From: an uncultured Pelagibacteraceae bacterium
GTDB taxonomy: Bacteria > Pseudomonadota > Alphaproteobacteria > Pelagibacterales > Pelagibacteraceae
NCBI GenBank assembly: GCA_902632275.1
Contig: CACPBW010000005.1
Location: 1 to 45,675 of the forward strand
Length of the DNA stretch: 45,675 nucleotides
Direction: 5' to 3'
Shown: in pieces, positions 10,630-31,324 of the stretch
How the letters are laid out: every line of letters begins with the position of its first letter
Position numbering within the stretch: position 1 is the stretch's first letter
Notes under the pieces: generated by a model
Told to the model about the DNA's origin: nothing
Database searches by the model: none
What the model saw: the letters and a program-made list of their open reading frames with translations, nothing else
Program-made: the position numbers and the translations under genes

Positions 10630-10704
10630 GCGGGCATAGCTCAGTGGTAGAGCGTCTCGTTGCCAACGAGAAGGTCGTGGGTTCAAGTCCCATTGCCCGC
10701 TCCA
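10630..10704 (+). tRNA. tRNA-Gly (anticodon GCC), CCA encoded
   Basis: Cloverleaf read by eye: acceptor GCGGGCA/TGCCCGC, anticodon arm TCTCG-TTGCCAA-CGAGA, T-arm GTGGG-TTCAAGT-CCCAT, 3' T-CCA. Confidence 0.96.
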
Positions 10705-30115: not shown

Positions 30116-30436
30116 ATGACAATTCAAAAAGCAAAATTTTCAATAGGTGACGTAGTTAAACACAAGCACTTCGATTTTCGAGGCGTGATATATGATGTTG
30201 ATTTTAAATTTAATAATTCTGAGGAGTGGTATCAGTCTATTCCAAAAAACGTTAGACCTAGAAAAGATCAACCCTTTTACCATCTGCTCGCTGAAAATGA
30301 TGATCTTACTTATGAAGCGTATGTATCTGAGCAGAATTTGTTGTTTGACGACTCAGAAGAGCCAATAAAGCATCCTCTAATAAATGAGATTTTTTCGGGA
30401 AAAAGGGGATCTAGTTATTTTAAGCAATCTAATTAA
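30116..30436 (+). CDS. hspQ: Heat shock protein HspQ (hemimethylated-DNA-binding domain)
   Basis: AKFSIGDVVKHKHFDFRGVIYDVDFKFNNSEEWYQS...RPRKDQPFYHLLAENDDLTYEAYVSEQNLL. Confidence 0.92.
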   Translation: MTIQKAKFSIGDVVKHKHFDFRGVIYDVDFKFNNSEEWYQSIPKNVRPRKDQPFYHLLAENDDLTYEAYVSEQNLLFDDSEEPIKHPLINEIFSGKRGSSYFKQSN

Positions 30437-30502
30437 TAGATCTTTTTTCAAACACAATTGGTACAAATGTTGGTCACACAAAATAAGTATATTTAAGGTA
30501 TA

Positions 30503-30562
30503 TTCTGATCAAGAGTGTAAACGTTTCCCTTAAGATTATCTCCCTCACATTCTTGATCAGAA
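30503..30562. other. Intergenic inverted repeat / candidate structured RNA element
   Basis: Perfect 12-bp arms TTCTGATCAAGA (30503-30514) and TCTTGATCAGAA (30551-30562), extendable by G-U plus 3 bp; 28-nt loop; inside a 186-nt intergenic gap. Confidence 0.6.
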
Positions 30563-30567
30563 GACCC

Positions 30568-30587
30568 TTTATCTCACTTTATCTCAC
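30568..30587. repeat. Perfect tandem 10-mer TTTATCTCAC x2
   Basis: Read directly: TTTATCTCACTTTATCTCAC, followed by TTT. Confidence 0.9.
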
Positions 30588-30622
30588 TTTGAAAAATAAA
30601 AATTTCAAATATAAATACAAAA

Positions 30623-31324
30623 ATGAATTTTATAAAAAACTATCAATTTAGCTTAGTGCGGAAAAGTCAAAAGATTGTTTTGTATTTATTTTTAATTGTC
30701 CTGATGCTTGGTTTATTTGAAGCTTTGATACTATCTCCTGAAGATTATCTCCAAGGTGACTCCGTTAGAATAATGTATGTCCATGTTCCATCAGCATGGA
30801 TTTCACTTGGAATATTTTCTTTAATGGCAACTCTATCGATTATGGTAATTATTTTTAAGAATAAAGTATTTTTTTTAATTGCAAAAAGTTTAGCTCCCTC
30901 TGGATTTGTCTTTAGCTTGGTAGCTTTAGTTACTGGATCGATCTGGGGCAAACCAACCTGGGGAACTTGGTGGGCCTGGGATGCCAGAATAACTTCGATG
31001 TTAATATTATGTATCTTTTATTTGATGTACTTATTAGCATGGAGGATTTTTGAGAATAAAGATTATGTAACTAAAATAACTTCATTTATAGCAATTTTAG
31101 GATTTATAAATATCCCAATTATAAAGTTTTCAGTTGATTGGTGGTCAACTTTGCACCAACCATCATCTGTAAATATATTCTCTAAAACTACTATACATAC
31201 TACAATGCTAATACCTTTGGGCATCATGACTGCGGCATTTGCCCTATTTTCGTTGCTAATTTTTTTAATGAAATATAATACAGAATTGATAAAAATTAAA
31301 AATAAAGGCTTAGACAGATTATGA
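30623..31324 (+). CDS. ccmC: Heme exporter protein CcmC
   Basis: YVHVPSAWISLGIF...WGKPTWGTWWAWDARITSMLILCIFYLMYL; TLHQPSSV. Confidence 0.96.
   Translation: MNFIKNYQFSLVRKSQKIVLYLFLIVLMLGLFEALILSPEDYLQGDSVRIMYVHVPSAWISLGIFSLMATLSIMVIIFKNKVFFLIAKSLAPSGFVFSLVALVTGSIWGKPTWGTWWAWDARITSMLILCIFYLMYLLAWRIFENKDYVTKITSFIAILGFINIPIIKFSVDWWSTLHQPSSVNIFSKTTIHTTMLIPLGIMTAAFALFSLLIFLMKYNTELIKIKNKGLDRL

Follow-up and report, generated by a model that had tools for sequence, protein, structure and literature searches.

The window analysed here, a 45,675-nucleotide stretch of DNA from an uncultured Pelagibacteraceae bacterium of the SAR11 group, contains a gap of 186 nt between hspQ (30116-30436; Pfam YccV-like) and ccmC (30623-31324; Cytochrom_C_asm). 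SAR11 bacteria are among the most abundant bacterial groups and have very short intergenic spacers. Within the gap lie two inverted-repeat arms, TTCTGATCAAGA at 30503-30514 and TCTTGATCAGAA at 30551-30562, which extend to a 16-bp stem with one G-U pair (30503-30518 with 30547-30562) enclosing a 28-nt loop (30519-30546). The original prediction had described this gap, its 12-bp inverted repeat, the extension to about 16 bp and the loop, and all of its coordinates proved exact. The features of the gap are as follows.

30451..30478, + strand: upstream block AACACAATTnnnnCAAAnCTTnGACAnA (AACACAATTGGTACAAATGTTGGTCACA in the window), near-invariant columns in 143 sequences, read as a putative promoter or activator element
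30488..30493, + strand: -10-like TATATT, from the anchored profile (positions 37-38), with a putative promoter role
30503..30518, + strand: hairpin 5' arm TTCTGATCAAGAGTGT, based on covariation within the genus and across 14 genera against a tree-aware null
30519..30546, + strand: hairpin loop AAACGTTTCCCTTAAGATTATCTCCCTC, 28 nt, variable in length with a conserved 3' part
30536..30546, + strand: conserved loop motif UUAUCUCCCUC, anti-Shine-Dalgarno-like, family core UCUCCCU
30547..30562, + strand: hairpin 3' arm ACATTCTTGATCAGAA, on the same basis as the 5' arm
30569..30588, + strand: tandem 10-mer TTATCTCACT, two copies, a private duplication outside the element, single-copy in close relatives

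Folding of the whole gap was more stable than that of shuffled sequences (z -2.5), and the hairpin alone gave z -5.4. Hairpins from all 14 genera examined below were likewise predicted to be single-stem folds, with z values between -4.6 and -8.0 relative to mononucleotide shuffles. The sequence TTATCTC occurs in the gap at 30536, 30569 and 30579, the last two positions falling within the perfect tandem 10-mer, and its repetition had been proposed as a motif of the element. The tandem is private to the window genome, with one copy in the nearest relatives (L002/L174, L175, L176 and L004), so the repetition is a coincidence and irrelevant to the element; the only conserved copy of TTATCTC is that in the loop, within UUAUCUCCCUC.

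The distribution of the element was examined in single-cell genomes and metagenome-assembled genomes of Pelagibacteraceae. A match to CcmC was found in 47 of 61 related genomes, and every same-genus locus with hspQ on the contig (26/26) carries the hairpin in a gap of 169-212 nt, with the loop motif TATCTCCCTC in all except one, which has TGTCTCCCTC. A covariance model (R1) built from 23 of these 26 loci returned one strong copy per genome in most genomes of the window's genus. Five near-complete genomes had no R1 match and also lacked hspQ, probably because a contig is missing. Weak second R1 matches (L084-L091, L094-L096), which have no hspQ context, were taken as chance.

The element is also present downstream of hspQ in other genera (g5 to g17), with completely different letters in the stem; one g8 contig (L162) ends too early to be judged. 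In total the hairpin was found in all 143 distinct regions downstream of hspQ (143/143), from 14 genera of Pelagibacteraceae, with hspQ as the constant upstream neighbour, and no copy without hspQ was seen in the family. Within the same order, the sister family yielded no copy, and there the next gene directly follows hspQ. A class-wide search of 289 alphaproteobacterial genomes gave as its sole other match a Pelagibacter-like contig (L256, G603:C48), which has hspQ and ccmC alongside and lies in a bin of another family; it was rejected as likely contamination, which leaves about 285 other alphaproteobacteria without the element. The element pattern was absent from IMG/VR viral contigs. At one locus (L081, ~2010-2170, genome G089) a partial tandem duplication of the element repeats the hairpin's 3' half, from the loop motif through the 3' arm to the spacer downstream.

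Within the window's genus, 97.0% of cells were paired and both sides had changed at 9 of the 16 pairs, and none of 500 shuffles was as good on any measure. In an alignment of 32 sequences spanning the 14 genera (A3), 98.2% of cells were paired and compensatory double changes were present at 12 of 12 core pairs. The covariation score of A3 was 0.79, compared with 0.42 when shuffled and no more than 0.25 when slid, and 0 of 500 shuffles reached it. As shuffles ignore relatedness, a tree-aware null was added in which the substitutions of each column were re-placed randomly on a FastTree hspQ tree, with 2,000 simulations per pair. Under the joint criterion of mutual information and pairing, P was ≤0.0065 for every pair (0/2,000 for ten of the twelve), and both sides of a pair had changed on the same branch on 34 branches of the hspQ tree. 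The covariation thus extends beyond phylogeny, and the outcomes named beforehand as refuting the original prediction were not seen. Read on the + strand, 50 cells were G-U and 2 were A-C, and this large excess of G-U indicates that selection acts on a + strand RNA.

No Rfam 15 family reached its gathering threshold in the gap; the only match over threshold in the window was a tRNA-Gly at 10630, and the best weak match in the gap was a chance microRNA model on the opposite strand. The idea of a candidate non-coding RNA is strongly supported, the element being conserved, covarying, on the + strand and without an Rfam match. With its stem rewritten pair by pair across 14 genera and its loop and upstream block fixed, the hairpin is, as judged from these alignments, a real functional RNA, and the element almost certainly defines a structured RNA family that is new and confined to Pelagibacteraceae.

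Loop lengths fall mostly between 17 and 38 nt and do not change in steps of three, but the 3' part is fixed, (U)AUCUCCCU(C/U). Within the family core UCUCCCU, the T, C, C and T of TnCCT are invariant in 143/143 sequences, and many loops carry an additional C-run farther 5' (CCC in 79/143). Since loop lengths fall in all three phases, the loop is not coding, and a conserved small ORF was ruled out.

A profile of the upstream region was made from 143 sequences (about 64 effective) anchored on the block AACACAATTnnnnCAAAnCTTnGACAnA. It shows, in order, a near-invariant block of ~28 nt, nine uninformative bases, a T (93%) and an A (97%), and AT-rich sequence as far as the stem. At its match level the full block is found a single time in each genome, the remaining matches carrying three mismatches. 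The -35 hexamer is non-canonical, and inspection by eye gave no clear match to sigma-54 or sigma-32 promoters. The fixed block and the -10-like TA at constant spacing suggest that the hairpin has its own promoter, with a start at the base of the stem.

Beyond the observed structure, strand, conservation, loop, upstream block and independence of ccmC (below), we infer a promoter, a discrete transcript and pairing with mRNA. In this model a small structured + strand RNA would be transcribed from a promoter of its own immediately after hspQ, starting near 30500 at the stem base, to give a hairpin RNA of about 60-75 nt. The hairpin would present the single-stranded C-rich loop UUAUCUCCCUC, which could pair in trans with G-rich Shine-Dalgarno regions (GGAG, GGGAGA) and lower translation of the mRNA, as the loops of alphaproteobacterial anti-Shine-Dalgarno sRNAs do. 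We favour such an independent, trans-acting small RNA tentatively, at a little short of an even chance.

Alternatively, the element could serve the downstream operon as its 5' leader, the block being the operon promoter and the hairpin a 5'-terminal element that affects stability or translation through a protein on the C-rich loop. The gene after the element is ccmC in 136/143 regions and PagL in 6/143; it is co-directional in 142/143 and mostly within ~100 nt, so that read-through into it is possible. No Rho-independent terminator was scored after the stem, and T-runs there barely exceed background (64 versus 45 of 143); with its 28-nt loop the hairpin does not resemble a simple terminator, as had been anticipated, and the lack of one fits a leader. 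In g6, g9 and g11 (L152, L153, L155, L078, L081 and L082) a PagL-like gene, not ccmC, adjoins the element, which thus still precedes the next same-strand gene and has hairpin, loop and upstream block all intact. In the window the PagL-like gene sits past the ccm cluster (34776), and it is this cluster that is missing between hspQ and PagL in the three genera. Retention of the element without an adjacent ccmC makes a ccm-specific leader, and hence a ccm-specific function, appear unlikely; of the regulatory leader originally proposed for the ccm genes, only a general downstream leader survives. Against the latter, the genes that follow are unrelated to each other (haem handling versus lipid A deacylation), and the spacer from stem to start codon shows neither conservation nor a visible expression platform. 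Moreover, a G-rich partner (GGGAG/GAGGG) is absent within 120 nt downstream in 142/143 regions, leaving no obvious cis partner for the loop. We consider an operon leader possible, if somewhat unlikely. Around the ccmC start of the window, a 16-nt inverted repeat (94%; 30607-30622 and 30678-30693) could fold over the start.

Complementarity of the loop to ribosome-binding sites was tested in two genomes of different genera, one of them complete and the other covered to about two thirds. Among 608 ortholog pairs, loop complements of at least 7 nt at such sites shared by orthologs numbered 1, whereas decoy loops that keep the CUCC core averaged 2.8, so complementary sites are not in excess. One common 8-nt match precedes an ATP-synthase-b-like gene (A1033/B513), a single post hoc case. 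Ribosome sites with GGGAG precede 11 genes in one genome and 9 in another, and the two sets have no orthologs in common. Those of G012 include two ammonium transporters, proteorhodopsin, an FMO-like monooxygenase and ABC transporter components; GGGAG was not conserved among orthologs of the first of these ammonium transporters. That the element is an Hfq-free, family-wide and independently promoted RNA controlling translation of nutrient-uptake or energy genes, such as ammonium transporters and proteorhodopsin, via its C-rich loop is a speculative proposal that we regard as improbable. Perfect 11-mer complements of the loop (GAGGGAGATAA, 46 genomes) were rejected as targets, as most of those inspected beyond the element itself are within coding sequence (Glu-Gly-Asp codons). 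An iron-binding-protein-like gene in two g7 genomes (L089/L090) begins with GAGGGAGATAAATG, which is perfectly complementary to the loop of g1; the loops of g7 are slightly different (UUACUCCCUCC, UUAACUCCCUCC). This gene start was discarded as a target, a general pattern not being found.

Hfq (PF17209) gave no match in 18 SAR11 genomes, including G000, from Pelagibacteraceae and the sister family, and the same search was positive in five control genomes (E. coli, Caulobacter and others); an Hfq-dependent mechanism of the canonical type is therefore unlikely. The missing Hfq match, the pyrimidine-rich loop and the negative antisense target test are all consistent with the loop serving as a sponge or binding site for RNA-binding proteins such as cold-shock CspE/CspL, rather than as an antisense seed. 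A role in post-transcriptional regulation has been proposed for CspE/CspL in Ca. P. ubique (PMC2864753). This reading, which concerns mechanism and overlaps the others, we consider possible but rather unlikely.

A third reading places the element in the 3' UTR of hspQ, either as a 3'-end stabiliser or as an sRNA cut from the hspQ mRNA. In its favour, hspQ always lies upstream of the Pelagibacteraceae copies, and alphaproteobacteria commonly make sRNAs from 3' UTRs (cf. PMC8625941). However, the fixed block and its constantly spaced -10-like TA are most easily read as a promoter, no U-tract follows the stem, and an intrinsic terminator would not have loops as large as 17-38 nt, so a 3' UTR origin is decidedly unlikely. 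A DNA-level inverted repeat, such as the operator that the palindromic TGATCA inside the window's 12-bp arms might suggest, is extremely improbable, as a protein would need conserved letters whereas pairing persists here while the stem letters are wholly rewritten, with G-U 25 times as common as A-C.

In SAR11 the coupling between proteome and transcriptome is reportedly poor (PMC2864753), implying post-transcriptional control. An RNA kept wherever hspQ is found in Pelagibacteraceae, a lineage without detected Hfq, is a testable candidate for such control. It resembles the structured RNAs, single hairpins among them, proposed in long intergenic regions of Ca. Pelagibacter ubique (Meyer et al., 2009; PMC2704228). 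The text of that survey mentions neither hspQ nor ccmC, and the element is absent from Rfam.

The nearest design is that of the alphaproteobacterial anti-Shine-Dalgarno sRNAs NfeR1 and AbcR. In alpha-r14/NfeR1, the 'cuckoo' RNAs of Rhizobiales, a C-rich anti-Shine-Dalgarno motif is kept in unpaired hairpin loops as the stems diverge (PMC10746234), and the RNA described here similarly has a fixed C-rich loop on diverging stems. Unlike alpha-r14/NfeR1, with three hairpins and the motif CCUCCUCCC, the SAR11 element is a single hairpin with UCUCCCU, has no Rfam match and no confirmed targets, and occurs where Hfq was not found; as its loop core is UCUCCCU and its hairpin is not repeated, we do not assign it to the alpha-r14/cuckoo group. 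AbcR1/2 (alpha-r15) also carry CUCCC in a hairpin loop, and GUUUCCC in the window is similar to their M2 motif GUUCCC (PMC5461406). M1 is CUCCCA in AbcR and CUCCCU in the SAR11 element, M2 lies between hairpins in AbcR and in the same loop in the window, and the SAR11 element is a single hairpin with no sequence match, all of which set it apart from the AbcR family. The position of the element recalls the CcsR RNAs with CcaF1 (DUF1127) of Rhodobacter, in which an sRNA also lies downstream of the gene for a small stress-type protein (PMC10253847). Here, in contrast, hspQ (YccV-like) takes the place of DUF1127, one RNA is present and not four, and a promoter-like block stands directly before the hairpin.
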